From Frankineae bacterium MT45 (GTDB lineage Bacteria; Actinomycetota; Actinomycetes; Mycobacteriales; Jatrophihabitantaceae), in contig LT629697.1 of NCBI GenBank assembly GCA_900100325.1, forward strand, positions 372,001 through 436,000: DNA of 64,000 bases. Direction: 5' to 3'. Shown in pieces: positions 2,155 to 62,685 of this stretch. Position numbers and translations under genes: made by a program. The notes below the pieces were generated by a model. That model was not told the DNA's origin. It saw only the letters and a list, made by a program, of their open reading frames with translations, and ran no database searches. Numbering within the stretch: position 1 is the stretch's first letter; each line of letters begins with the position of its first letter.

Positions 2155-3819
2155 ATGAACCTCGGCCGTCCGAGCGGGCGGGACGTGCTCTCGGGATTGG
2201 TGACCGGCCTCTTCTCCATCCCGGAGGGGATGGCCTACGCCAGCATCGGGGGCTTCAACCCGGTCGCCGGTCTCTACGCCGGCATGGTTCCGACGCTCGT
2301 CGGCTCCTTCTTCGCCCGGACCGTCCTGATGGTCACGACGCTCACCAGCGCCATCGCGCTCTCCTCGCACAGCGTGCTGAAGTCCGCCGGCCTCGACCCC
2401 TCCGACCCCGCGAATGTCGCGGCACTCGCCCTCTGCGTGGGCGTCGTGATGGCCGTCCTCGGGCTGGCCCGGGGCGGGTCGATCATGAACTTCGTCTCGA
2501 ACGCGGTGATGACCGGCTTCACCACCGGAATCGCCCTCCAGATCATCGCCGGGGTGATCAAGGACGCCACCGGCTACGCCCCGACCAGCGGCAACACCGT
2601 CGGCAAACTCCTGCAGGCGATCGGACACATCGGGTCGTGGGACGGCTCGGCGGTCGCGGTCTCGGTGGCGACGATCGCGGTCTGGGGCGTCTTCCACTTC
2701 GTCAAACCGGTGGCCTCCCTGGCCACCCTCATAGCGCTGCTGGTCGTCAGCGTGGTCGTCTACCTGGCCAAGGTTGACGTCGAGACGGTAGGCGACATCG
2801 CCTCCATCCCCAACAGCCTCCCGAAGCTCACCGGACCGGCCTGGTCGGCCATCCCGCACGTGGCTCTCGGGTCGGTGGCGGTGGCACTGGTCGCGCTCGC
2901 CCAGGCCGCCGGCATTTCAGCCGCCGTCCCCAACCCGGATCGCTCCCGCCCCAACGCGTCGCGGGACTTTCTCGCCCAGGGACTGGCCAACGTCGCCGGG
3001 AGTGCCTTCGGTGCTCTTCCGGCCGGCGGGTCGTTGTCGCGAACGGGTGTTGCCGTGTCGGCCGGTGCCCGCACGCGCTGGGCCGGCATCCTCGCCGGCG
3101 TCTGGCTGATCGTGCTGGTCGCCGTCATGGGTTCGGCGGCCGAGCACATCCCGATGCCGGTGATCGGTGGGTTGATCATGGTGATCGGCGTCGAGCTCGT
3201 CATGGGACGGTTGCCCGACATCATCCTCGTCGTCAAGACCGCGCCGCTCTCCACGGTCGCGATGGTGATCACCTTCGCTGCGACGACCCAGCTTCCGCTG
3301 CAGTACGCGATCCTCATCGGCGCGATCGTGTCGCTCGTCCTCTACTGCGTCCAGGCCGCGCGGCAGAGCAGCCTGCTGGCCCTGGAGAAGCTCCCCGGCG
3401 GCTCCTGGCGGACCATTCCCGTTCCGCAGAAGTGCCCGAGCCGGGACGTCACCGTGCTGTACTACGGCGGGGTCGGGCTGTTCGCCGAGGTGCCGCACCT
3501 GGACGAGCTGTGGCCGAGTACCGACGACACCCACGGGGCGGTCGTACTGCTCAGCCTGCGGACGCTCCCCGACGTGCCCTCCACCGCAGTTGTCCGGGAG
3601 ATCGAGAAGCGAGCCGGACAGCTGACGGCCAACGGCAGCAAGCTGATGATCGTCGGGGTGACGCCCGAGCTCGAACGAATCCTCACCCGCTCCGGTCTGG
3701 TCGCGACCCTCGGCGCGAGCAACGTCGTCCCGGCCACCGACGAACTCTTCGGCGCGCTCAACCGTGCGGTGGAGGAGGCGCGAGAGTGGATCGCCCGGCA
3801 GCCCAACCGATCCGGCTGA
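2155..3819 (+). CDS. SulP family anion permease with C-terminal STAS domain
   Basis: A 554-residue inner-membrane transporter. The N-terminal signature GLFSIPEGMAYASIGGFNPV is typical of SulP proteins, followed by roughly 10-12 hydrophobic segments to about residue 405 and a soluble STAS-like domain (about 425-545) that usually regulates transport. Members move sulfate, bicarbonate or other anions; which one applies here cannot be decided. It starts 7 bases after the CLC-type gene, without a strong ribosome binding site of its own, which suggests translational coupling. The two anion transporters in tandem may balance charge or pH, which is an inference. Confidence 0.87.
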   Translation: MNLGRPSGRDVLSGLVTGLFSIPEGMAYASIGGFNPVAGLYAGMVPTLVGSFFARTVLMVTTLTSAIALSSHSVLKSAGLDPSDPANVAALALCVGVVMAVLGLARGGSIMNFVSNAVMTGFTTGIALQIIAGVIKDATGYAPTSGNTVGKLLQAIGHIGSWDGSAVAVSVATIAVWGVFHFVKPVASLATLIALLVVSVVVYLAKVDVETVGDIASIPNSLPKLTGPAWSAIPHVALGSVAVALVALAQAAGISAAVPNPDRSRPNASRDFLAQGLANVAGSAFGALPAGGSLSRTGVAVSAGARTRWAGILAGVWLIVLVAVMGSAAEHIPMPVIGGLIMVIGVELVMGRLPDIILVVKTAPLSTVAMVITFAATTQLPLQYAILIGAIVSLVLYCVQAARQSSLLALEKLPGGSWRTIPVPQKCPSRDVTVLYYGGVGLFAEVPHLDELWPSTDDTHGAVVLLSLRTLPDVPSTAVVREIEKRAGQLTANGSKLMIVGVTPELERILTRSGLVATLGASNVVPATDELFGALNRAVEEAREWIARQPNRSG

Positions 3820-3830
3820 TCGGTGTTCGG

Positions 3831-4457
3831 TCAACGGGGCCAATCGAGCACGACGAGCTGCGGCCATTCGGCTGACCATCGGGCTGCCTTCGTCCTGTAA
3901 ACGTCCGCTGGTGCGAGCACGGGGTTGGGCCGCAGGATCATGTTGAACACGTCCGACAGGCCGTGGGGCGCATAGATCTGCCAGGCGCCGTCAGCTGCGA
4001 GTCGCACGCCAAGACAGCAGGTAGTCGCGGCGAAGCTGTCGATCGCGGACTCCGTCGAAGTGTGCGGAGGGCAAGCGACGCCGAACCTCTGCTCGTACCA
4101 CAGGTGGACCCGGGCCTCGTTGCGAACCTCTACTTCTATGGGTAGATCGGCGAACAGAGCGGCGACCCGCTTGACGACTATGTCCTCTGCGTCCCAAGAC
4201 AGGTCACGATCGTCGAAGTAGAACAGGTCGTAGTCCTTGATGCCCAGATCAGGGTCACGGCCACTCACCACGTTCCAGACCGTTTGAAAGACGCATCCGG
4301 CGGTCAGGTACCAACCCGGCAAGCTCAGCGAAGCGGACCGGGAGAGGACCTCAACGAGCGTGGTGTTCCGCTCGAGCATGCTCCGCAGGACGGAGAGCTG
4401 GTCGTCGACGGGGAGCCGACCGAACTTGCCTGCGCGATCTGCTTTCGTCACGGACAC
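3831..4457 (-). CDS. Nucleotidyltransferase-like protein (NTP_transf_6 type)
   Basis: A 208-residue soluble protein. The segment GIKDYDLFYFDDRDLSW around residues 72-88 has the acidic D-x-D pattern of the nucleotidyltransferase-like family with members near 200 residues, and the preceding LTAGCVFQTVWN matches its glycine-containing strand. The C-terminal part (HGLSDVFNMILRPNPVL, then YRTKAARWSAEWPQL) is also typical of this family, whose substrate is unknown. Start is taken as GTG at 4457. It converges with the SulP-type gene, leaving 11 bases between stops. Function is a family guess only. Confidence 0.72.
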   Translation of the reverse strand: MSVTKADRAGKFGRLPVDDQLSVLRSMLERNTTLVEVLSRSASLSLPGWYLTAGCVFQTVWNVVSGRDPDLGIKDYDLFYFDDRDLSWDAEDIVVKRVAALFADLPIEVEVRNEARVHLWYEQRFGVACPPHTSTESAIDSFAATTCCLGVRLAADGAWQIYAPHGLSDVFNMILRPNPVLAPADVYRTKAARWSAEWPQLVVLDWPR

Positions 4458-4477
4458 CGACGCCGTTCAGTAACTAG

Positions 4478-4551
4478 TGGAGCGGGTGACGGGAATCGAA
4501 CCCGCGCAATCTGCTTGGGAAGCAGAGACTCTGCCATTGAGCTACACCCGC
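4478..4551 (-). tRNA. tRNA-Gly (anticodon CCC), CCA encoded
   Basis: Reading the minus strand from 4551 gives a cloverleaf: acceptor arm GCGGGTG pairing with CACCCGC, a D-arm with AGCTC...GCAGAG, anticodon stem TCTGC/GCAGA around the loop TTCCCAA (anticodon CCC, decoding GGG), a short variable region, and the T-arm GGGTTCGATTCCC. The 3' CCA is encoded at 4480-4478. Length is 71 bases plus CCA, normal for tRNA-Gly. It sits divergently upstream of dcd, as I recall for mycobacteria. Confidence 0.96.
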
Positions 4552-4640
4552 GAACAGCTCGCGACACGCGCGAACACTCGTGAACTGGGAAAATGCTACA
4601 CGAAGCCCAGTGTTTGCCAGGTTCCCGATTTCGCGGGCGT

Positions 4641-4656
4641 TATAGGGTCAGCCTCG
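4641..4656 (+). promoter_or_regulatory. Promoter of a leaderless dcd transcript
   Basis: A good -10 element TATAGG at 4641-4646 ends nine bases before the GTG at 4656, putting transcription initiation at or within a few bases of the start codon. No ribosome binding site lies between them. This indicates a leaderless mRNA, common in actinobacteria. No convincing -35 was seen. Confidence 0.55.
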
Positions 4657-5234
4657 TGCTACTCAGCGATCGTGACATCAAAGCAGCCGTGACCGCCGGG
4701 CGCCTGGTGCTGGAGCCCTGGGATGAGGGCCTGGTCCAGCCCTCCAGCGTCGACGTGCGTCTGGACCGCTTCTTCCGGGTCTTCAACAACTCGCAGTACA
4801 CGCACATCGACCCGGCCGAGCAGCAGGACGAGCTCACCACCCTCGTCGAGCCGGCCGGCGATGACCCCTTCGTGCTTCATCCGGGCGAGTTCGTCCTCGG
4901 CTCCACGCTGGAGGTCGTCACCCTCCCCGACGATCTGGCCGGGCGGCTGGAGGGGAAGTCCTCACTGGGACGCCTCGGCCTCCTCACCCACTCGACGGCC
5001 GGCTTCATCGACCCGGGCTTCAGCGGGCACATCACGCTGGAACTCTCGAACGTGGCCAACCTGCCGATCACCCTCTGGCCGGGCATGAAGATCGGCCAAC
5101 TCTGCCTCTTCAAGCTCTCCTCGGCCGCCGAGCACCCGTACGGATCGGCCGTCTACGGATCCCGCTACCAGGGTCAGCGCGGTCCGACACCGAGCCGGGC
5201 CCACCTCAATTTCAAGCGCTGGCCGACGGGCTAG
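4656..5234 (+). CDS. dcd: dCTP deaminase, probably bifunctional dCTP deaminase/dUTPase
   Basis: A 192-residue enzyme of pyrimidine deoxynucleotide synthesis converting dCTP to dUTP and, in actinobacterial forms, on to dUMP for thymidylate production. The core segment from about residue 107 ([18 protein letters not shown], then [15 protein letters not shown]) carries the family nucleotide-binding motif and the catalytic glutamate, and the C-terminus ([16 protein letters not shown]) closely follows the mycobacterial bifunctional enzyme as I remember it. The start is GTG at 4656, chosen because it gives the normal length and lies just after the -10. Longer in-frame starts would run back towards the tRNA region. 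Confidence 0.95.
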
Positions 5235-5238
5235 CCGA

Positions 5239-6828
5239 CTACCGCGGGGAGGAGATCTCCCCGAGGTTGACGGTCGTCGCCGGGAACGCACGGGCGGGGA
5301 CGTCGACCACAACCTGGTTCCGGCCGCCCTCCTTGGCCCGGTATAGCGCGGCGTCGGCTCGCGCCACCAGGTCGTCGAGACCCGCCCCGTCATCGGCCTG
5401 GGCCAGCCCGAGCGAGATGGTAACCGGCAGCGGCTCCTTTTGGGCGTGCACCTTGATCCGCATCCCCTCGGCCACCTCGAAGGCCTCCTCCGACGTGGTG
5501 TTGGTGAGGATGACGACGAACTCCTCGCCGCCGTAGCGAGCCACCAGATCGTCGGGGCGGGCGCTCTTGTCGATGAGACCGGCGACCGACTGCAGCACCG
5601 TGTCACCCATCTGGTGGCCGTGCACGTCGTTCACCGACTTGAAGTGGTCGATGTCGACCAGGAAGAGCGAGATGGGCAGGGCCTCCGGCGTCACCCGCAG
5701 CTTGGCCACCGTCTCGTCGAAGGTCCGGCGGTTGGCCACACCGGTGAGACCGTCGGTGGTGGCGGCGCGGCGCAACTGGGCGAGGATCGCGGTACGGGAG
5801 GCGGCGAGACCGGCCGCCACACAGGCCTGCGAAGCGCTGCTGATGACCCGTCGCTCCAGGCGGTTGCCGCGTCCCTGGTGCTCGAGCACGACCCATTCGG
5901 TCCCCTCGACGGCAGCGATCGGCAGTGCGATGAGGCGACGGGCGTCCGGGAAGAGCGAGGCGAGCCACTTGTCGTCCGGGCCGAGTCGATAGACGACCCG
6001 TGGTGGCGCGGTGGCCGAACCGGAGCGGAGCAACTCGGAGAGGAAGACACCCGTCTCATGCTCGGCCTTCTCGTCGAGGCCAAGACCGAGGTCGAGGGTG
6101 AAGCCGTGCTCAGACGGGGAGATCCAGGCCGCCCGGCGCACGTCCATCTCGTCATGGCAGAACTGCAGCAGCAGTTGACGAACGTCGTTGACCCGCTCGA
6201 CGCCGGCCAACTTCACCGCGAAGAGACGGAACGATTCAGCGTCGTAGCGGCGGCGGCGCAGTTCCCGCTCGTTCAGCGACGCGAACTGCGCGGTGGCGAT
6301 GACGGTCAGCCAGAGCACGGCGAGGTAAGCCAGCACCTCCGACTGGTCCTTGATCTCCAGCGACGGGTGCGAGATCGACCCGATCAACGCCGCCTGCCGA
6401 ATCATGAAGACGAGCAGGCTGTGCCAGAGCGCCACCTTCAGACCGGTCCGGAACGAGACGAGGAGGCAGACGGCAACCAGGTAAGCGGCGATGACGATGT
6501 CGAGGCCGACCGGCGTGCCGAAGATGCGCTCGCCCTGCAGGAAGACACCGTCGACCAGCAATGAGAGGCCGAATGTCCGCAGAGCCAGGCCACGTCGTGC
6601 GGTGAGTACCGGTGCGCTCAGCATCGAGGTCGTGAGCAGGTACAACACCACGACGAGCCACTGGGCGACGGCGCTCGAGTTCGGCACCAGCAGGACCTGC
6701 AGCAGGCCGATGGTGATCGCCGCGACGAAGCGGAAGGACATCAGGACGAGGACGCGCTCCGAGAGCGGGACGATCTCGTCGGCCTGCTGGCTGCGCAGGC
6801 CCTTGGCGCCGGCGGAGAGTGCGCTCAC
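5239..6828 (-). CDS. Membrane-bound diguanylate cyclase (GGDEF) with GAF-like region
   Basis: A 529-residue protein expected to make c-di-GMP from two GTP. Residues about 28-190 hold five or six hydrophobic segments; a soluble, GAF-like sensor region follows (about 205-345); the GGDEF domain occupies about 355-505. The active-site GGEEF is intact at about 433-437, and an RxxD product-inhibition site (RPDD, about 424-427) sits five residues upstream, so an active, feedback-limited cyclase is predicted. The GTG start overlaps the stop of the preceding membrane protein gene by four bases, so the two are translationally coupled. It is the last gene of the TasA-like/SipW-like cluster, suggesting that c-di-GMP signalling is tied to surface fibre production. 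Confidence 0.92.
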   Translation of the reverse strand: MSALSAGAKGLRSQQADEIVPLSERVLVLMSFRFVAAITIGLLQVLLVPNSSAVAQWLVVVLYLLTTSMLSAPVLTARRGLALRTFGLSLLVDGVFLQGERIFGTPVGLDIVIAAYLVAVCLLVSFRTGLKVALWHSLLVFMIRQAALIGSISHPSLEIKDQSEVLAYLAVLWLTVIATAQFASLNERELRRRRYDAESFRLFAVKLAGVERVNDVRQLLLQFCHDEMDVRRAAWISPSEHGFTLDLGLGLDEKAEHETGVFLSELLRSGSATAPPRVVYRLGPDDKWLASLFPDARRLIALPIAAVEGTEWVVLEHQGRGNRLERRVISSASQACVAAGLAASRTAILAQLRRAATTDGLTGVANRRTFDETVAKLRVTPEALPISLFLVDIDHFKSVNDVHGHQMGDTVLQSVAGLIDKSARPDDLVARYGGEEFVVILTNTTSEEAFEVAEGMRIKVHAQKEPLPVTISLGLAQADDGAGLDDLVARADAALYRAKEGGRNQVVVDVPARAFPATTVNLGEISSPR

Positions 6829-7733
6829 AGCTGCACCTCCGACGGGCGCAGGGTGAAGCGCAGGTCATCGTTGCGCACCGGGGCCAGGGCCAGCTTCGGG
6901 TCGCGCCGGTCGACGCTCTCCTGAGCGATGAAGAAGGCGAAGGCCAGCGCGAGGAGGATCAACGGGTACTGCGGGTGACGCAGCAGGGCGGCCGAGACCG
7001 CACCCGCGGTGGAGACAGCCTTACTGAGCCACGGCTGCGCGGGGCGGCCGAGGGTGACCGTCGGGTTCTCCGGGTGCGCGGGAGGGTTCGAGTTCCCCGT
7101 CGGCGGCTGCGGGCGGTGCGGCGGCACGGCGGCCGGGCGTGGGGTGACCGTCGGGTGGACCGTCGGCTTCGGAGTCGGTGCCGGGACGGTCAGCGGGGCC
7201 GTGTCGTAGTGCCAGGCGAAGGATGCCTGCGCGGTCGAGACGAGCGGCACCTCCTCGGCGGCCTTGACGGTGATCCGGAATCGCCAGGTCGGGGCGCTCT
7301 TGGGCAGCCAGCCGGTGACGACCCCCTTCTCGGGGTGGTCGGAGGAGACGGCGAGACCAGTGAGCGGGCCCTGGTAGATCTGGGTTCCGGTGAAGTCGGC
7401 GCAGCTGCTGCTATCAGCCGGTCCAGCGATCACGGTGACGGTGAGGAACTTGGCCAGCGGGCCGGAGATCTCCTGGCCGGCGAAGGCGACAGAGTCGGCC
7501 GGCCCAGCGTTCTCTACGGTGACGTCGGTGCAGGCGGTGTTCTGCTGGCCGGCCAACATGTCGTTGACCGTGAAGAGCGGCTTGCCGTCATTGTCACCGA
7601 ACATCGAGACGGTCCCGTCGGAGAGGGTCGGCGTCGGGGTCGCCGAGGCGACGCCGGCAACGACGAGGAAGAAGAGTCCGGCGAGTACTGCAGGCACGCC
7701 TATCCAGCTACGCAGGAGCCGTCGCCATGCCAC
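6825..7733 (-). CDS. Secreted, C-terminally anchored TasA/camelysin-like protein
   Basis: A 302-residue protein with a signal peptide (RRLLRSW, hydrophobic about 12-28, VASA cleavage area). The mature part has a beta-rich domain whose start (FGDNDGKPLFTVNDMLAGQ, then ACTDVTVENAG) resembles the fibre-protein pattern of the gene at 9109 (AMFNVTNLSPG, then KCIEVDYTG). A Pro/Thr-rich stalk (about 185-230) leads to a transmembrane segment near 252-270 and a cytoplasmic tail of about 30 residues. It would be an envelope anchor or assembly partner for the fibre protein. It overlaps the cyclase gene by four bases. No family was recognised with confidence; the relation to TasA-like proteins rests on motif similarity only. 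Confidence 0.7.
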   Translation of the reverse strand: MAWRRLLRSWIGVPAVLAGLFFLVVAGVASATPTPTLSDGTVSMFGDNDGKPLFTVNDMLAGQQNTACTDVTVENAGPADSVAFAGQEISGPLAKFLTVTVIAGPADSSSCADFTGTQIYQGPLTGLAVSSDHPEKGVVTGWLPKSAPTWRFRITVKAAEEVPLVSTAQASFAWHYDTAPLTVPAPTPKPTVHPTVTPRPAAVPPHRPQPPTGNSNPPAHPENPTVTLGRPAQPWLSKAVSTAGAVSAALLRHPQYPLILLALAFAFFIAQESVDRRDPKLALAPVRNDDLRFTLRPSEVQL

Positions 7734-7767
7734 TCACCTCAACTCCAATCCGTCTCTTGAGGGTTTC

Positions 7768-7787
7768 ACCGGAGGTCCGTCTCCGGT
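7768..7787. other. Hairpin in the gap between signal peptidase and anchor genes
   Basis: A perfect inverted repeat, ACCGGAG at 7768-7774 and CTCCGGT at 7781-7787 with a six-base loop, lies in the 144-base gap between the two minus-strand genes. No T-run follows on the minus strand. It could be an attenuator, an RNA-processing site or a weak terminator separating the fibre genes from the anchor/cyclase pair. Confidence 0.4.
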
Positions 7788-7877
7788 TCTCGCTATCGGT
7801 TTATCGGCACAGAATCCCCACAACTGAGGCCCAGTGCCGCGCTCAGGGCTCAGTCGGCGGTCAACAGCGCGGACCCG

Positions 7878-9095
7878 TCACCGGAGTTCTTCTTCGCTCT
7901 CGGCGTCGGCCCGCCAGAGGCGCCGCAGGATCAGGGTGAGAGCAGCCGCCGCGATGAGGAGGACGGCGATGCTGCGCCCGAGCGATGACCCCAGATCTGA
8001 GAGCCAGCGCCCGACATAGTTGACGTGAAAGACGCCGAGGCCGAGCTTGGAGTTCACCGGCACCTGCCAGTGCTCGCTGACCTTGTTGGCGTCACCGCGA
8101 GTTTCGAAGTCCATGGTCGCGCCGTCCCGGTGCATCGAGACGATGCGGTGGGTGACGCTCTGGTTGTGCAGCGCCGGGCTGCGGAAGGTCACCAGGTCAC
8201 CGGGATGCAACTGCTCCGGCGACACCGAACGGCTGATGACGAGCGCCCCGACCTGCATCGTGGGGCGCATCGATCCACTGAGGACCACGGCGCCGCGGTA
8301 GCCCATGGCCGCACCGACGAAGCAGCCGAGGATGCCGACGATGGTGGCCAGCAGCGCGACCGTGATGGCGATGCTGGTGCCCCGGCGGACGAAGAAGGTA
8401 CCGACGTGACTGAGGCGGACCGCCAGCGACGGAGGTGCCGAGTGGCGAGCCCGATAGCGGGCCTGCTCCTTGGATTCCAGGGCGAGTTGCTCGGGGGCGG
8501 CGCGCAGCATGGCCCGTTCGACCTGCTCGTTGGCCAGCTCCTGCTGCACCTGCGGGTCTTCGATCAGCGCACGGACGAAGGCCGGGGCCTGTTCGGCGGC
8601 GATCTCGGCCGCGCGGTTCAGCGAGACCTCGGGGAGCGGTGCCTCGGGGAGGTACGCCTCAGGCTCGGTGAGCTCAGGCAGGACGACCTCAGGCAGCACG
8701 ACCTCTGGCCGTGGCAATTCAGCTTGCATGACTTCCGCCGCAACCAACGGGGGGAGGGAGACCTCCACCCGAGGCGTCTCCGCGCGGGAGACGCTCGAAA
8801 GATTGCCGGCATCGACGACCGTCGGACCGAACGTGGTCGGGCCCCAGTCGGGTCGGTCGATCGACAAGCGCTGCAGTAGCGACATCGAGTCCGGTCGCGC
8901 CTCGACGGCGGGTTCGACGGTGGGCTCAGCAGTGCGCTCGGCAGTCGCGAACCGCGCGTGCGGTTCGGCCACCTCGGCCGGGGTCGGCTCTTCGGCGGCG
9001 TGTCGCCCGCGGGTGCGCGCAGGCAGCGGCGAAGCCGCGCCGACCTTGGTGGTCGGCGCGGCTTCGCCCAGCGGGGCGTCCACAACGGAAGTCAT
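7878..9095 (-). CDS. SipW-type signal peptidase I (S26B) with long N-terminal region
   Basis: A 405-residue protein. The C-terminal third is a signal peptidase of the archaeal/ER/SipW class: hydrophobic segment at about 240-262, VLSGSMRPTM with catalytic Ser near 275, VTHRIV with His near 316 (Ser-His dyad rather than Ser-Lys), a GDANK segment and a second membrane segment at about 375-392. The first 230 residues are an unusual cytoplasmic region rich in Glu, Pro and Ala with repeated LPEV-like units. It starts 13 bases after the stop of the TasA-like gene, the same pairing as sipW-tasA in Bacillus, so it is probably the dedicated peptidase for that substrate. Confidence 0.88.
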   Translation of the reverse strand: MTSVVDAPLGEAAPTTKVGAASPLPARTRGRHAAEEPTPAEVAEPHARFATAERTAEPTVEPAVEARPDSMSLLQRLSIDRPDWGPTTFGPTVVDAGNLSSVSRAETPRVEVSLPPLVAAEVMQAELPRPEVVLPEVVLPELTEPEAYLPEAPLPEVSLNRAAEIAAEQAPAFVRALIEDPQVQQELANEQVERAMLRAAPEQLALESKEQARYRARHSAPPSLAVRLSHVGTFFVRRGTSIAITVALLATIVGILGCFVGAAMGYRGAVVLSGSMRPTMQVGALVISRSVSPEQLHPGDLVTFRSPALHNQSVTHRIVSMHRDGATMDFETRGDANKVSEHWQVPVNSKLGLGVFHVNYVGRWLSDLGSSLGRSIAVLLIAAAALTLILRRLWRADAESEEELR

Positions 9096-9108
9096 CGTGC
9101 GGGTCCGA

Positions 9109-9816
9109 TCAGGTCGCGGTGAGGGTCCAGGTCAGCGTGACCGTGATCGTCTGGTTGCAGTAGGTGGCGCAGTTGGTGTCGGCACCGGGCAGGCCACTGA
9201 CGGTGAACTTGTACCAGGTGTGGTTCATCGTCGAAGCCGTGTAGTTAGTGCCGTTGGCCCAGGTGGCCAGCGTCGCGCCCTGCGTTCCCATGTTGTTGTC
9301 AGTGCCGCCCGGGTAGCTGGTGCAGGCACCGTTGTTGGTGTTCGTCCCAGGGGTCGTCACTGCCGCGCCGGCCGTCGAGTTGTAGACGGCGGTGTTCATC
9401 GTCAGCTGCGACTGCAGGGCGGCCTGACCGGCGCCACCGAGGGTGCCCGAGAGGGTCATGCCCGTCGCTGTGCCGGTGTAGTCCACCTCGATGCACTTGG
9501 TAGTGGCGGCAGAGCCCGGCGAGAGGTTGGTGACGTTGAACATCGCGGTACCGGTAGCGGTCGCCGAGCCAGCCTCACCACCCTGGTTGTCGTCGATGAG
9601 GATCGTCGAGGTCGTGAAGGTGTTACCGCCGTTCACGTCCTGCGCGGTCCACGCGGCCCACGTGCCGGCTACCGCCAGCGAGCCCACGGCGAGGAGCGCC
9701 GCGATACTCATGAGCAACTTGGTCTTGGAGAGCTGCAGCAGGTTACGCGGGGAGATCAGAAAGAAGGCCCCGCGCCTCCGCCGATTGGTGTCGCCTGATT
9801 CCTTGGCGTTTCTCAT
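9109..9816 (-). CDS. TasA/camelysin-like secreted protein with SipW-type signal peptide
   Basis: A 235-residue exported protein. A basic N-region (NRRRRG) precedes a hydrophobic core at about 34-50 and then GTWAAWTAQD at 51-60, the signature following SipW-dependent signal peptides. The mature portion is rich in Thr, Asn, Gly and Ala with paired cysteines and repeats the FNVTNLSPG and KCIEV elements seen in TasA/CalY-type proteins, which form surface fibres or remain membrane-linked. A GGAAGG ribosome binding site precedes the ATG at 9816. It is first in the minus-strand cluster, downstream of a long intergenic region. Polymerisation is an inference from the family. Confidence 0.83.
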   Translation of the reverse strand: MRNAKESGDTNRRRRGAFFLISPRNLLQLSKTKLLMSIAALLAVGSLAVAGTWAAWTAQDVNGGNTFTTSTILIDDNQGGEAGSATATGTAMFNVTNLSPGSAATTKCIEVDYTGTATGMTLSGTLGGAGQAALQSQLTMNTAVYNSTAGAAVTTPGTNTNNGACTSYPGGTDNNMGTQGATLATWANGTNYTASTMNHTWYKFTVSGLPGADTNCATYCNQTITVTLTWTLTAT

Positions 9817-10376
9817 GTCAGTACCTTCCGTGTACTTGGTCGTCGCTGCCAGCGCCCGATTTCCCGCTGTATCGGTGGTATCGGTCGCGTGAGAAAAAAG
9901 TTAAGGCAATACCTCAAAAACTTCTTGTTGATCTTGTTTTTCGTTTGCCAGGGGCGTATACCGCACTACTTCTTTGATCGGCTGGTGGCACATCGTGACG
10001 GAAACTACGGAACGCGCACAAAATGCTTCGCTGACGCCCGGTACCAGGTAATTTGCGCCAGTCCGCCGCGGGCCCGCGCACGTAAGGGCATACGGCGGAT
10101 CCGTCAACTCGAGTTCTTGAGACCTCGGCAACACAACAGATCCAGGCCACTGAATGCCCTAGTTTTACTGGGTATTTGGGCCAATAGCCGAGTCACGACT
10201 CCCACTGCAGGAGACTGCATAAGAGTGCAGCCGAGGGGATGGATCCTGGCACGCTGCTCAGATGAGCGCATACTTTACTGCGAAAGCAACGGGCTCGGTT
10301 CCGTATATTTCAAGAGTAATTCGGCGTCGATCGATAGTCACCGGTCGCCGGAGATTCGCTAGAACGCCAATCGTTT
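9817..10376. other. AT-richer 560-base intergenic region upstream of the TasA-like operon
   Basis: No credible gene was found on either strand; the short open frames here lack normal actinobacterial codon bias. Base composition drops visibly compared with neighbouring genes, with A/T runs such as GAAAAAAG near 9892 and several TATA-like words. It separates the marR stop (10377) from the TasA-like start (9816) on the same strand, so it probably holds the operon promoter and a long 5' leader. I looked for GEMM and ydaO riboswitch cores on the minus strand and did not find a convincing one. Confidence 0.5.
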
Positions 10377-10916
10377 TCAGTGAGCGCGGAGTCCCGCCAC
10401 GATCTTGTCCAGCAGAACGGCCAGTTGACGTCGCTCGTCGTCGTCCAGCGGGGTAACCAGGTTCGACTCGACCACGTCAGCCTCGGTGACGGCTCGCCGG
10501 AAGAGCTCCCAGCCGGCGGGCGTGAGGGTGACCTGCATCCGCGTCCGGTTGCTGGTGTCGGGCTCCCGGGCCACCAGTTCGCGAGCCACCATCCCGTCCA
10601 GGCGGTGGGTCATCGTCGATGGCGAGACACCGCATACGTCGGCGAGGTGCGACGGCGTCGAGTGCCCCTCCGGCCCCTCGACGGCCAGACAGGTGAGCAC
10701 GCTCCACTCGCCAGGGGAGATATCGAGGTCGAGGAACTGCTGCCGGTAGTAGATGTCGAGGCGGCGCCCGACCCGGCTGATGGCCGTCACAATGCGCTGC
10801 ACCGACTCCTCGCCGCCGGCCGCGGTGTAGACGGCGACGGCCCGTTCGAACTCGGCATACGGGGTGGCCGGCTTGGCTGTGGCGGAGCTATCAGATTTTC
10901 GCTTTGCCGGGGCCAT
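10377..10916 (-). CDS. MarR family transcriptional regulator
   Basis: A 179-residue winged-helix regulator. The DNA-binding core spans about residues 65-130 (DISPGEWSVLTCLAVEG, then CGVSPSTMTHRLDGMVARELV with the basic wing DTSNRTRMQVTLTPAG). Start is set at the ATG at 10916 (MAPAKRKSDSS), because the longer frame to 10976 would run through the palindromic operators and the opposite promoter. A TACAGT -10-like box lies 7-12 bases before this ATG, suggesting a leaderless transcript. It is divergent to an MFS exporter, the classic MarR arrangement, and likely represses both genes until an effector binds. Confidence 0.87.
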   Translation of the reverse strand: MAPAKRKSDSSATAKPATPYAEFERAVAVYTAAGGEESVQRIVTAISRVGRRLDIYYRQQFLDLDISPGEWSVLTCLAVEGPEGHSTPSHLADVCGVSPSTMTHRLDGMVARELVAREPDTSNRTRMQVTLTPAGWELFRRAVTEADVVESNLVTPLDDDERRQLAVLLDKIVAGLRAH

Positions 10917-10927
10917 GGCTCTACTGT

Positions 10928-10970
10928 ACTTTCGATAGTGTACTTCGAAATCGAAGTTTGAAATCAAACT
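10928..10970. promoter_or_regulatory. Cluster of MarR operator palindromes
   Basis: Two overlapping perfect inverted repeats with an AA centre: ACTTCGA-AA-TCGAAGT at 10942-10957 and AGTTTGA-AA-TCAAACT at 10955-10970. They share AGT at 10955-10957. A third imperfect element, ACTTTCGATAGT, is at 10928-10939. Together they cover the regulator promoter and the region upstream of the exporter ATG at 10993. MarR proteins bind such 16-base palindromes, so dual repression is expected. The binding protein is inferred from position. Confidence 0.72.
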
Positions 10971-10992
10971 TGACAACTAGACAGGACTTGAA

Positions 10993-12234
10993 ATGCGCTC
11001 CGCCCGCGGCAAAGTTGCCGTGCTGCTCATCGGTTCATCCCTCGCCTCCGGCGGCTGGGGAGCAGTGCTCCCCTTCATCTACTCCGACATCAGCACCACC
11101 CGACACCTCGGCGGCATGGTTGCCGCCGCCACTTTCATCGCCTTCGCCATCGGCTCGCTGCTGGCCGCACCCAGTGCTGGTGCCGCCGCCGACCGTGGCA
11201 ATCCGGTTCGAGTAGCCACCACCGCCCGTCTGGTGATGGCGCTGTCGGTCCTCGCCCTCGGACTCAGCACGTCGGCGATCGGTGTCTGGTACAGCGCGGC
11301 CGCCCTCGGCGCCGGCGTCGCCTTCACCCAGCCGTCGGTTTCGGTACTTCTCCTCGCGGGCACCCCGCAGCGTCGACACCGTGACGTCTTCGCCTGGCAG
11401 TCCATCACCCAGAACCTCACCCTGGCCGTCGGCGGATTCTTCGGCGGCTTGATCATCGACCTGCATACCCCGGCCGGGGCGCACCGCGTCTACTACCTGG
11501 CCGCCGTCGCCGCCGTCGCCAGTGCGCTCACCGTCTATGCCGCCGGGCGCCGCATCCACACCACCCGCGTCCCGTCGAAGTCCGCGGTCGAGGCCCCGGC
11601 CGGCTACCGCACGATGCTCGGCAACCGCAACCTGCGTCTCCTGCTCGGCGTCACCATGCTCATCACGCTGGCCTGCTACGCCCAGTACGAATCGGGGCTA
11701 CCGGCCTTCGCGATCAACGCCATGCACGTCTCGCCCAAGATCATCGGAATCGCGGTTGCGGTGAACGCGATCATGGTCGCGGTCCTCACCGGCCCGGTCG
11801 TGAGCATGACCCGGCGGCACGCCCCGACCAACCTGCTGGCCGCTTGCGCCTCGATCTGGATCGGCTGCTGGCTGATCATCGCCGTCCCGCTTTTCCTGCA
11901 CGGGATGGCGTCGGTCGCCCTCATCACCGGCCTGGCCACCATCTCGGTCGGTGAGACGATGCTCGCCCCGGTGCTGAACCCGCTCGCCGCATCACTCGCC
12001 CCCGACGGCGCGGTCGGCCGGACGCTGGCCATGGTCAGCGGATCCACCACGCTGGCCTGCGCTATCGGCCCCGCGCTCTCCGGAGTGCTCATCGCCAGCG
12101 GCGTCCCGTCCGGCTTCATCGTGCTGCAGCTCTCCTGCTGTGTCGGCGCGATCCTGCTCGCCCGTCGCCTCGGCGCCCTCATGCGCCGGCAGCGGCAGCA
12201 CGCCGAGGTGGAAGCCTTCGACCTCGCTGCGTGA
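10993..12234 (+). CDS. MFS transporter, probable drug or metabolite exporter
   Basis: A 413-residue major facilitator with about 12 hydrophobic segments in two halves separated by a basic loop (RRIHTTRVPSKS, about residues 190-205). The first intracellular loop has the degenerate motif-A stretch AAADRGNPVRVATTARL. An AGGA ribosome binding site lies seven bases before the ATG. Its divergence from a MarR regulator with shared operators suggests inducible efflux of a toxic compound, but the substrate is unknown. Confidence 0.83.
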   Translation: MRSARGKVAVLLIGSSLASGGWGAVLPFIYSDISTTRHLGGMVAAATFIAFAIGSLLAAPSAGAAADRGNPVRVATTARLVMALSVLALGLSTSAIGVWYSAAALGAGVAFTQPSVSVLLLAGTPQRRHRDVFAWQSITQNLTLAVGGFFGGLIIDLHTPAGAHRVYYLAAVAAVASALTVYAAGRRIHTTRVPSKSAVEAPAGYRTMLGNRNLRLLLGVTMLITLACYAQYESGLPAFAINAMHVSPKIIGIAVAVNAIMVAVLTGPVVSMTRRHAPTNLLAACASIWIGCWLIIAVPLFLHGMASVALITGLATISVGETMLAPVLNPLAASLAPDGAVGRTLAMVSGSTTLACAIGPALSGVLIASGVPSGFIVLQLSCCVGAILLARRLGALMRRQRQHAEVEAFDLAA

Positions 12235-60831: not shown

Positions 60832-62685
60832 ATGGAAGCGAGTACTGCTGCGGAGCGCGTTCAGCATCGGCGCCCAGATCATGAGGACCACCGGTCACTC
60901 GGTGATATTGCCCGACGCGTTCAGACGTCCGCCGCGCTGCGCCCGGCTGTAGCGACGCGACAGATCTTCGCCAAGACCACCGGGCTTCTCTATGCCGCCA
61001 GCGGAAGCCTGGGCCTGGCCATGATCCTCAGCTCCAATCCGATGCCGTCCAACGCTGTCTCCTTGCTCGCTATCGCTGGGCTCTGCGTCTTCTCCGGCAC
61101 TTTCATGATGCTCCGGGGGGAGCGTCTGGAAGCCTGGACCCACCACTTCTTTATTGCACTCGGTACGGTTTTGATTGCGTCGGGTGTATATCTGGCCGGT
61201 GGTGGGGCCCGCTCTGTGGGGCTGGCCAGCCTCTTCATGTTCGTGTCGCTCGGCTGCTTCTTCTGCTTCGCCTGGTCAGTCGCGCTCGTCCACCTCGCCT
61301 TTATCGAGCTCTGCTCATTCCTCGCCTTCACCGGCGCCGGCGTGAGTGAGTCAGACGTCATCGTGCAGCAGGGCTGCATGCTCGCGGTCGGCATCATCGT
61401 GGGCTACATGACGCGCGCCACCGCCGCCGCCGAGCGTGACCTGCTCACCGGCCTGCTGAACCGCCGAGGCTTCGACCGGCGACTCCGCGAGGCGATCCTC
61501 GATGCTCAGCACACCGGTCAGAGCCTCTCGGTACTGCTGCTAGACCTCGACAACTTCAAGGCGATCAACGAGCAGCACGGCCACAGCGACGGGAACCGTG
61601 TGCTGCGTCAGGTCGCCAACGTCTGGAAGACCCTGATCACCGATGACATGCTGCTCTCCCGCCCGGGTGACGACGAGTTCGCGATCATGCTCCCCGGCTA
61701 CACGGCGAATCGCGCCGCCGCCTTCGCAGATCAACTGCGTGAGTCCGTCGCCGCCGAGACCTCCTGCTCTGCGGGTATCGCGGAGATGCAGGCCGAGGAC
61801 TCCCGCTCCATGCTCGTCGGGCGGGCCGAGGTCGCGCTCTATGAGGCCAAGCGGAACGGCGGAGGCAACTCGATGCAGTTCGGCGTCGTGGACGCCGCCG
61901 ACGGCGACGCGATCCACGCCGGCCTGAAGCTCGGCCAGTTCGAGGTGTACTACCAGCCGATCATCGACCTCAACCTGCGGGAAGTGATCGGCGACGAGGC
62001 CCTGATCCGCTGGAATCACCCGACCCGGGGCCTGGTCGCGCCGGACGAGTTCATCCCGGCCGCCGAGAAGAGCGGCGCGATTCACGCCCTCGGCCAGTGG
62101 ATCCTCTACGAAGCCTGTGCCGGAACCGCCGAATACATCAAGACATCCGGCCTCCCGCGCCGCGTGTCGGTGAATGCCTCGGGTCACGAGCTGAAGAGCA
62201 CCGACTACGCCGGCAACGTCGCCGAGGTCCTCGCCTCCACCGGTCTTCCGGCGTCGGCCCTGGTTATCGAGGTCACCGAGTCGACCTTCGACGCCGACCA
62301 CCCGCACGTCATTTCGGTGCTGCACGATCTCCGCCAGCTGGGCGTCGGCATCGCCATCGACGACTTCGGCACCGGCTACTCCTCGCTGAACCGGTTGGAC
62401 CACCTGCCGGCGAACGTGCTGAAGATCGACCGTTCCTTCGTCGCCGCCATTCCGGTGACCGGGGCAGAAGTGCCGATTCTCAAGGCGATTGTGGCTCTGG
62501 CTGATGCGCTCGGACTGCGCATCATCGCGGAGGGCGTCGAGACGCTGCACCAGGCCGAGGTGCTGGCCGGTCTCGGTTGCTCACACGCCCAGGGCTACTA
62601 CTTCGGACGTCCGCACCCGGACCAGCAGGCGACCAAGGTTCCCGAGACGCTCTCGATCGTCGAGAACATCGAGTCGGCGGCCTGA
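60832..62685 (+). CDS. Membrane GGDEF-EAL protein, probable c-di-GMP phosphodiesterase
   Basis: A 617-residue protein with six hydrophobic segments (about 48-195), a GGDEF domain (about 200-350) and an EAL domain (about 360-600). The GGDEF signature is altered to GDDEF (279-283), so cyclase activity is doubtful. The EAL domain keeps its key elements: EAL 389-391, EVTES near 480, IDDFGTG 509-515, K531, AEGVE 566-570 and the late QGYYFGRP. It should hydrolyse c-di-GMP, with the GGDEF part sensing GTP. It follows cwlM and may oppose the cyclase encoded at 5239-6828. Confidence 0.9.
   Translation: MEASTAAERVQHRRPDHEDHRSLGDIARRVQTSAALRPAVATRQIFAKTTGLLYAASGSLGLAMILSSNPMPSNAVSLLAIAGLCVFSGTFMMLRGERLEAWTHHFFIALGTVLIASGVYLAGGGARSVGLASLFMFVSLGCFFCFAWSVALVHLAFIELCSFLAFTGAGVSESDVIVQQGCMLAVGIIVGYMTRATAAAERDLLTGLLNRRGFDRRLREAILDAQHTGQSLSVLLLDLDNFKAINEQHGHSDGNRVLRQVANVWKTLITDDMLLSRPGDDEFAIMLPGYTANRAAAFADQLRESVAAETSCSAGIAEMQAEDSRSMLVGRAEVALYEAKRNGGGNSMQFGVVDAADGDAIHAGLKLGQFEVYYQPIIDLNLREVIGDEALIRWNHPTRGLVAPDEFIPAAEKSGAIHALGQWILYEACAGTAEYIKTSGLPRRVSVNASGHELKSTDYAGNVAEVLASTGLPASALVIEVTESTFDADHPHVISVLHDLRQLGVGIAIDDFGTGYSSLNRLDHLPANVLKIDRSFVAAIPVTGAEVPILKAIVALADALGLRIIAEGVETLHQAEVLAGLGCSHAQGYYFGRPHPDQQATKVPETLSIVENIESAA

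Follow-up and report, generated by a model that had tools for sequence, protein, structure and literature searches.

A TasA-like candidate surface-fibre cluster of an actinobacterium in which an anchored paralogue adjoins a predicted c-di-GMP sensor-cyclase

The window analysed here is a 64,000-nt stretch of Frankineae bacterium MT45 (contig LT629697.1, positions 372,001 to 436,000), in which four minus-strand genes encode a secreted TasA-like protein, a SipW-like signal peptidase, a membrane-anchored protein and a sensor-cyclase (Table 1). All four open reading frames were found where a first-pass annotation had placed them (within 5239-9816), and the four-base overlap that it had described between the anchor and cyclase genes is present in the sequence. 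The cluster is not a chance assembly, since its gene order is kept, with one extra gene, in a genome of the same genus (G018), and all four parts are present, in a different context, in a genome of another genus (G009). An Rfam search of positions 3500-11500 at the gathering score found no c-di-GMP riboswitch, the sole match being a tRNA (4481-4551). Furthermore, no promoters of the type scanned for were found in 5000-10400, and the only repeats in 9817-10400 were short imperfect ones.

Table 1. Positions of the genes and features of the cluster (numbered from the first letter of the window).
Feature	Position	Strand	Remark
Secreted TasA-like (presumed fibre) protein gene	9109-9816	-	235 aa
Putative N-terminal donor strand of the fibre protein, AAWTAQDVNGGNTF	9616-9657	-	Absent from the anchored paralogue
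SipW-like signal peptidase gene	7878-9095	-	405 aa
Anchored paralogue gene	6825-7733	-	302 aa
Predicted TasA-fold ectodomain of the anchor, about residues 35-178	7200-7631	-	Aligns with 5of2 over model residues 37-182
TM helix and cytoplasmic tail, residues 256-302	6828-6968	-	F...Q...DRRDPKL motif
Four-base GTGA overlap, anchor stop/cyclase start	6825-6828	-	Read from sequence
Sensor-cyclase gene	5239-6828	-	529 aa
GGDEF domain with GGEEF and RPDD I-site	5314-5763	-	PF00990 and motif reading

The secreted protein, for which a SipW-dependent-type signal peptide had been proposed, does pass the NCBIfam model of that name (TIGR04088 'SipW-dependent-type signal peptide', 21.7 bits against a cut-off of 19), a model that matches just 2 of the 11 fibre-family members at E ≤ 1; for the L146 protein the score is under the cut-off, and for the G009 protein there is no match at all. 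In Pfam the secreted protein has no match, nor does it match, at E ≤ 1, the TasA equivalog NF046066, for which two of its relatives reach 16.5 (L118) and 14.2 bits (L124) against a cut-off of 450. When the PDB was searched with phmmer, the only match was an antibody chain (E 0.18), and in a profile search with the fibre family an antibody chain (VHH, E 0.017) again ranked above TasA (0.84-0.96). Since these PDB searches favour antibody chains, the link of the secreted protein to TasA is not proven by sequence alone. A TasA fold is nevertheless likely, as predicted from a low-confidence model (pLDDT 59), whose top VIA row is TasA (Z 8.0, 123 residues, 2.8 Å) in a tie with unrelated beta-sandwich folds at 7.8, and which in Foldseek gives TasA at rank 19.

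Behind its signal peptide, the secreted protein carries a segment (AAWTAQDVNGGNTF) that aligns in position with the AFSATT.N.GNSF segment of its relatives and that may, by likeness to TasA as portrayed in an excerpt of PMC9674648, act as a donor strand. A donor-like signature (A-x-[FW]-[ST..]-x-T) was found in 20 of 28 non-anchor matches, several of which are spurious frames, and in 0 of 15 anchors, where absence was judged on sequence; L087, which forms one record with L146, was dropped from the count. At the corresponding position, the anchors of L028, L086 and L146 have different linkers. The number of residues from signal peptide to first strand (medians 34 vs 17, four further matches without the motif having been dropped) was rejected as evidence, because the strand hit by the motif differed between the groups, and because several of the non-anchor frames were spurious.

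The next gene had been described as encoding a Ser-His signal peptidase, and its product passes both Pfam PF10502 (24.2 against 22.9) and NCBIfam TIGR02228 (75.5 against 51.85 bits), the latter placing it with the SipW/archaeal-type signal peptidases I. Its SGSM motif and His316, whose Ser and His we take to be the catalytic residues, are invariant across three aligned relatives (alignment A4). With 55.9 bits it stays under the cut-off of 190 of the Bacillus SipW equivalog NF046067, and it carries an N-terminal extension of about 240 residues. The earlier label 'dedicated' for this peptidase is unproven, as two other proteins of the genome exceed the TIGR02228 cut-off.

In the anchored protein we found a hydrophobic segment at the N-terminus, a stalk rich in Pro, a second hydrophobic segment at residues 256-274 and a tail of 28 residues, in line with the stalk, C-terminal membrane segment and tail read from the sequence before. 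Pfam and NCBIfam gave no match for it. Its AF2 model, on the other hand, matches TasA best in the PDB (5of2; Foldseek E 8.7e-4, probability 1.00), and in VIA it aligns with TasA at Z 10.3 over 131 residues at 3.0 Å, the best non-TasA row being at 8.4. That is, prediction gives the anchored ectodomain a TasA fold, and the unrelated fold that the first-pass annotation had named as an adverse outcome did not appear. The two TasA-like proteins had also been said to share sequence elements; an F..L.(P/A)G....C..V element is indeed common to both, and a conserved Cys is found in both families, but paralogy is visible by profile comparison only. BLASTP detected no similarity between the two proteins of the window (E 0.74), whereas hhalign joined the fibre and anchor families with a probability of 99.6 (E 1.9e-24, 144 columns), and by this measure the families are homologous.

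These results bear on whether the secreted protein is a fibre subunit. It could instead be a soluble or wall-bound cargo of the SipW-type pathway, whose TasA-like fold is just a shared beta-sandwich. Such a reading would suit the weak model and its tied TasA match, and the cargo may vary, since the G018 cluster holds an additional Gly-rich secreted protein. It accords poorly with the SipW-type signal and the donor-strand-like segment, with TasA being the only non-antibody match, albeit a weak one, of the PDB profile search at E ≤ 10, and with the clear TasA likeness of the homologous anchor, and we regard it as quite improbable.

By sequence, the last gene encodes a predicted diguanylate cyclase (Pfam PF00990, 1.8e-41) with a GGEEF motif and an RxxD I-site, RPDDLVARYGGEEF (RPDD), as anticipated when it was described as a membrane GGEEF cyclase with an intact inhibition site. 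Six hydrophobic segments of PilS-like arrangement are followed by a GAF-like region and then by the GGDEF domain, and six hydropathy peaks lie before residue 200 in the sensor alignment (A6). The N-terminus of the window sensor has no Pfam match. Among its relatives, the model PF25323 (6TM_PilS, cut-off 27 bits) is passed over the same stretch by three of the four kinase-type sensors scanned (L066, L063 and L069; 33.4, 29.1 and 30.8 bits), is below the cut-off in L081, L087 and L145, and has no match in L128. GAF was found by Pfam in some of the aligned homologues, and the I-site is missing from three Kineosporia-type sensors and from L128.

A survey that started from the N-terminal domain of the sensor only found a gene for an anchor-type tail directly upstream of the sensor in 41 of 42 loci; the remaining locus, L140, is truncated by its contig end. 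With the window and L021, L028 and L098 included, the tail gene is upstream in 45 of 46 loci, or in 36 of 37 clusters when loci are grouped at 70% identity, and a possible start at -4, giving the four-base overlap, exists in 39 of the 45 loci (30 of 36 clusters). The contig scan behind this survey used a single peptide pattern, RTG[LIM]K[IVL]A[LAI]W, which matched 54 stretches, 42 of them confirmed. A sample of the phylum (396 genomes) was searched both ways, that is, with the sensor alignment A6 and with an alignment of tails (A7, 30 rows), in which F, Q, D and L are invariant and for which 30 of the 31 collected tails were used, the tail without DPKL (L147) being excluded. This sample held 19 strong sensor places (at least 284 bits), 18 with an adjoining tail, and 22 tail places, 18 with an adjoining sensor and four without. 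At most 5 candidates per genome were scored with A6 and at most 17 with A7; among the candidates scored, A6 matched at E ≤ 0.001 in 77 of the 396 genomes, and only the 19 places were counted as sensors, the next best having 165 bits and the sub-threshold matches being mostly partial, over the GAF-like part. The two surveys are not independent, since 13 of the 42 sensor-first records (13 of the 18 pairs of the phylum sample) are shared, as judged by the length of the contig and the position on it, and the sample's genomes also supplied some of the A6 and A7 rows. Seven weaker sensors (L213-L219; 67-257 bits) were not counted; the upstream gene was viewed for five of them, and by eye L213-L216 clearly, and L217 less clearly, follow a protein that ends in a hydrophobic segment without DPKL.

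The constant unit of these loci is a surface protein with one membrane helix and a QxxxDRRDPKL tail, followed by a sensor in which a putative PilS-like six-helix domain and a GAF-like domain precede an output. Both ends of the pair vary: the ectodomains are TasA-like, Ig repeats, NHL propellers or stalks, and the outputs are GGDEF, GGDEF-EAL or histidine kinase (6 of 46). One tail gene precedes a REC-EAL gene, again with an ATGA overlap. The cyclase was found to adjoin the anchor in other genera and in another phylum, as the pair occurs in Actinomycetota and also in records titled Chloroflexi, whose placement is open to binning error because they are MAGs. The proposal of an actinobacterial system therefore holds for the occurrence in actinobacteria, but not for a confinement to them.

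Gene order and overlap of this kind would also result from co-regulation. The anchor could simply tether the fibre or another surface protein and the cyclase could sense the membrane or a GAF ligand, c-di-GMP and surface protein rising together from the same operon, and the GAF domain of sensor relatives and the tails that lack sensors agree with this. However, the pair stays adjacent though ectodomain and output change, and it is helix and tail that anchors of different ectodomain types have in common, a conservation for which simple tethering would give little reason; co-expression only seems rather unlikely to us. Control might also run from the inside out, with the sensor or local c-di-GMP acting on the tail and governing whether the surface protein is displayed, released or assembled. 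Conservation of a cytoplasmic tail motif and the overlap of one tail gene with the REC-EAL gene would be in keeping with this. On the other side, histidine kinase outputs are hard to read as tail effectors, and no known domain was found on the window anchor, although ligand binding by so short a tail is conceivable. We consider inside-out control improbable. A quite possible reading, if a slightly doubtful one, is that the pairs form an unnamed class of two-part receptor, in which a swappable ectodomain on a conserved helix and tail is combined with a PilS-like sensor with a swappable output. Here the receptor would be plugged into a TasA/SipW fibre through an acceptor-only TasA paralogue, with fibre occupancy or load setting c-di-GMP.

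A SipW-like peptidase together with a separate fibre-like gene occurs in 14 of the 15 TasA-type loci, and a separate gene of the secreted-protein family is present in 13 anchor-sensor loci other than that of the window; the TasA-type pair of Motilibacter (L155) has neither a peptidase nor a separate fibre gene within the stretch examined. In the other 30 of the 45 pairs the ectodomain was not detected as TasA-like, and a SipW-like peptidase lies within the stretch examined in 1 of these and is absent from it in 29. Frames around anchor and fibre are broken or unclear in L127 and L128, and L128 was placed in the 'other' class, a choice that weakens rather than favours the link between TasA type and peptidase. 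Moreover, six loci have a fibre-like gene and a peptidase with no sensor in the stretch examined (L062, L065, L075, L083, L084 and L090). Given the 29 peptidase-free pairs and the six sensor-less loci, the cyclase is tied to the anchor and not to fibre and peptidase. Of the coupling between fibre anchoring and cyclase proposed earlier, the part that concerns the anchored protein stands, whereas linkage to the fibre/peptidase pair does not.

We find it, on balance, just about probable that the cluster encodes a TasA-like surface-fibre system connected through the anchored paralogue to a receptor with c-di-GMP output; the earlier reading of a surface-fibre system with a genetically coupled cyclase is supported in so far as neither the structure nor the neighbourhood check contradicted it. 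The fibre protein would polymerise through its N-terminal donor strand, like Bacillus TasA. Lacking such a strand, the anchored paralogue might accept but could not donate, and would therefore cap one fibre end and tether it at the membrane. The helix and tail of the paralogue may pack onto the sensor's six-helix domain and report fibre binding or load to it, in the way that PilA signals to PilS, and the sensor would then alter its c-di-GMP output, limited by its I-site.

The Bacillus subtilis tapA-sipW-tasA operon, which an excerpt of PMC5422440 names without a cyclase beside it, resembles the cluster in the TIGR04088 signal peptide, the SipW-like peptidase, the TasA fold predicted for the anchor and the donor-strand-like segment after the fibre signal peptide; the cluster differs in its TasA-fold paralogue with TM helix and tail and in its membrane sensor-cyclase. 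According to an excerpt of PMC6058289, PilS of Pseudomonas aeruginosa type IV pili contacts the pilin PilA by way of six TM segments; the present pair, with PF25323 matched in relatives of the sensor, would likewise combine a six-helix sensor with a membrane-held appendage subunit. Here, in contrast, the output is GGDEF, GGDEF-EAL or a HisKA_3 kinase, the partner is anchored C-terminally with a cytoplasmic tail, and the genes adjoin and mostly overlap. CapP/TasA/CalY of Bacillus cereus is likewise a sortase-independent filament system with an accessory protein, and the excerpt of PMC13082335 mentions no TasA paralogue that is TM-anchored and linked to a cyclase. GAF-GGDEF and HisKA_3-type membrane sensors share the output domains and GAF, the difference being the upstream partner gene with conserved TM helix and tail.

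In searches of the open-access literature, preprints aside, none of the titles and opening parts of abstracts found described actinobacterial SipW/TasA loci with a cyclase or the tail-sensor pair. If the pair works as read here, it would link a donor-strand fibre directly, at the molecular level, to c-di-GMP, would give a function to a gene pair of many actinobacteria and Chloroflexi records, and would predict which surface proteins of those genomes are receptor subunits. This reading can be tested, since the TasA-type set is present in named isolates, i.e. Geodermatophilus obscurus and four sister species, and two Kineosporia strains.

The conserved anchor-sensor pair emerged as more important than the four-gene cluster that was originally noticed. 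Relatives were sought with the sensor N-terminus alone (residues 1-348, GGDEF excluded), and tails were sought with a profile of the transmembrane segment and cytoplasmic tail, seeded with the window, G018 (a genome of the same genus) and G009 (another genus) and iterated across the loci found. Scanning of the genome collection relied on one peptide pattern and yielded 42 named loci, from Geodermatophilus (5), Cellulomonas marina and Motilibacter deserti, Kineosporia with a close MAG (3), and MAGs titled Frankiaceae, Pseudonocardiales, Acidimicrobiales, Solirubrobacteraceae, Nitriliruptorales, Chloroflexi and others. In 41 of the 42 loci a tail gene lies directly upstream of the sensor gene and on its strand; the remaining one (L140) starts at a contig end. 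With the window, L021 (the G018 locus), L028 and L098 added, this holds for 45/46 loci, or 36/37 clusters at 70% identity, and in 39 of the 45 loci (30/36 clusters) a start is possible at -4. In a phylum sample of 396 genomes, searched from the sensor and from the tail, strong sensors occurred at 19 places in 18 genomes (at least 284 bits; next score 165) and tails at 22 places in 19 genomes, forming 18 adjacent pairs, 13 of which are records also in the 42-locus scan, so that the two surveys overlap. The exceptions were G234, with one sensor and one tail on separate contigs, G069, with a partnerless tail, G367, where the tail is followed by another secreted-type protein, and G107, where the tail stop overlaps a REC-EAL start by ATGA. 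By this overlap (locus L082) the tail class pairs also with a phosphodiesterase-type output. Tail proteins in L212 and L086 that are not directly followed by a sensor are listed in the table, and four distant sensors (L213-L216, 138-257 bits) are preceded by surface-type proteins that end in a hydrophobic segment and lack DPKL.

Coordinates of features in the window, its genome (G000) and surveyed loci
Feature	Sequence	Position	Strand
Presumed fibre protein	window	9109-9816	-
Peptidase	window	7878-9095	-
Peptidase N-terminal extension	window	8373-9095	-
Anchor	window	6825-7733	-
Cyclase (sensor)	window	5239-6828	-
GTGA shared by anchor stop and cyclase start	window	6825-6828	-
Probable GGDEF-EAL protein	window	60832-62685	+
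Genome matches of the same protein	G000	433402-434613	
TIGR02228-passing peptidase	G000:C1	557449-557862	
TIGR02228-passing peptidase	G000:C1	994612-995070	
Gly-rich secreted-type protein	L021	7741-8694	+
Tail protein whose stop overlaps a REC-EAL start	L082	2-1000	-
Tail protein, no sensor directly downstream	L212	6165-7109	-
Tail protein, no sensor directly downstream	L086	1-867	+

In the window itself the original observation was right as a whole. The ORF check recovered all four minus-strand genes; the first product carries a SipW-dependent-type signal peptide that passes NCBIfam's own cut-off, the second is, by family models and alignment, a SipW/archaeal-type signal peptidase, and the third is a single-pass protein anchored C-terminally; the fourth, whose start overlaps the anchor stop by four bases, is a GGDEF membrane protein that has GGEEF and an RxxD I-site. 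The constituent parts all belong to known families, and no description of this arrangement was found in the open-access literature searched. An Rfam scan found no c-di-GMP riboswitch at the cluster. The catalytic part of the peptidase is preceded by an extension of about 240 residues with PEVVLPEVVLPEL-type repeats; by alignment, G018 has a similar one and G009 none. Two further SipW/archaeal-type peptidases are encoded in the genome. Among the 24 genomes of the family searched, anchor matches were limited to the window's genome, G018 and G009. The order in G018 is fibre, peptidase, an additional Gly-rich secreted protein (no match in an NCBIfam scan), anchor and cyclase. In G009, whose proteins are 29-37% identical (alignments A1-A4) and whose neighbours differ from the window's, fibre and peptidase are divergent from anchor and cyclase, the latter two again overlapping by four bases.

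A model of the anchor, computed along with ten named-genome relatives (mean pLDDT 69; blocks of 72-91 over residues 51-180 and 57-61 over residues 31-50), predicts strands and one helix followed by stalk, transmembrane segment and tail. The TasA fold was recovered from this prediction: TasA 5of2 ranked first of 350,542 PDB chains (E 8.7e-4, probability 1.00, the sole match below 0.001), TasA 5of1 was tenth, also with probability 1.00, and in VIA the TasA entries reached Z 10.3 and 9.7, ahead of 8.4 for the entry that follows. The model of the fibre protein was poor (mean pLDDT 59), with TasA as the top VIA row (Z 8.0), the TasA fibre 8aur at 7.4, unrelated folds at 7.8, and 8aur at rank 19 in Foldseek. 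Profile comparison (99.6%, E 1.9e-24) shows the fibre and anchor families to be homologous, from which we infer that the fibre protein shares the anchor's TasA fold.

The constant parts of the pair are the tail and the sensor N-terminus. In tail alignment A7 (30 rows, L147 excluded) F, Q, D and L are invariant, and D, P, K, A and F occur in at least 90% of rows. The sensor N-terminus has six hydropathy peaks ahead of residue 200; the PilS-like PF25323 passes its cut-off in L066, L063 and L069 and falls below it in L081, L087 and L145, and GAF passes in L066, L081 and L087. The six transmembrane segments of PilS are described as contacting PilA (PMC6058289). Because of the conserved tail, the probably PilS-like six-helix sensor and the PilS-PilA contact, the pair may, by analogy rather than proof, be regarded as a receptor.

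What varies is the ectodomain, the output and the peptidase. TasA-like ectodomains occur in 15/45 pairs; among about six non-TasA loci scanned, L121, L122, L149, L157 and L132 have Big_13 Ig repeats, while L123 has NHL and FN3 and L089 (record identical to L120) NHL and Ig. Many others appear, from sequence, to be short low-complexity stalks. The output is GGDEF in 40/46 sensors and a HisKA_3/HATPase-type kinase in six, all of one clade; L145, a Chloroflexi-titled sensor that was scanned, has GGDEF-EAL. Of the 40 GGDEF sensors, 35 keep an intact I-site; the Kineosporia group (3) and L128 have lost it, and L123 has no GG[DE]EF in its frame. A SipW-like peptidase is encoded in the same stretch in 14/15 TasA-type loci versus 1/30 others (L128), and the same 14 have a separate fibre-like gene. 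Conversely, L062, L065, L075, L083, L084 and L090 combine fibre-like gene and peptidase with no sensor within the locus stretch. This distribution indicates that TasA/SipW is a module plugged into the anchor-sensor pair.

Each subunit of a TasA fibre is completed by an N-terminal strand of the preceding one, the first strand being thought to come from TapA (PMC9674648). Following their signal peptide, the fibre proteins have a segment ..AAF(S/T)ATT.N.GNSF..GTV.L or similar, which runs from shortly before the stretch weakly matched by the TasA profile into that stretch. Among the anchors, those of the window, L021, L118, L155, L143, L124-126 and L135-138 lead almost directly from the signal-peptide end, which we take to be AxA-like (the SipW cleavage site is likewise assumed), into the first strand, and in L028, L086 and L146 dissimilar linkers lie in between. 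This near-direct passage leads us to propose the anchor as an acceptor. That is, it would accept a donor strand and be unable to donate one, and would thereby end the fibre at the membrane.

The reading as a fibre system coupled to a cyclase is supported, and we infer, with a little more belief than doubt, a TasA-like surface-fibre system wired to a c-di-GMP receptor. What lowers confidence slightly is that the SipW-type signal model does not recognise most fibre relatives and that the surveys overlap. The cyclase query had 23 matches in the window's genome, nearly all over the GGDEF part, and there were 19 EAL matches, so that a local rather than a global signal is likely. A probable GGDEF-EAL protein is also encoded elsewhere in the window.
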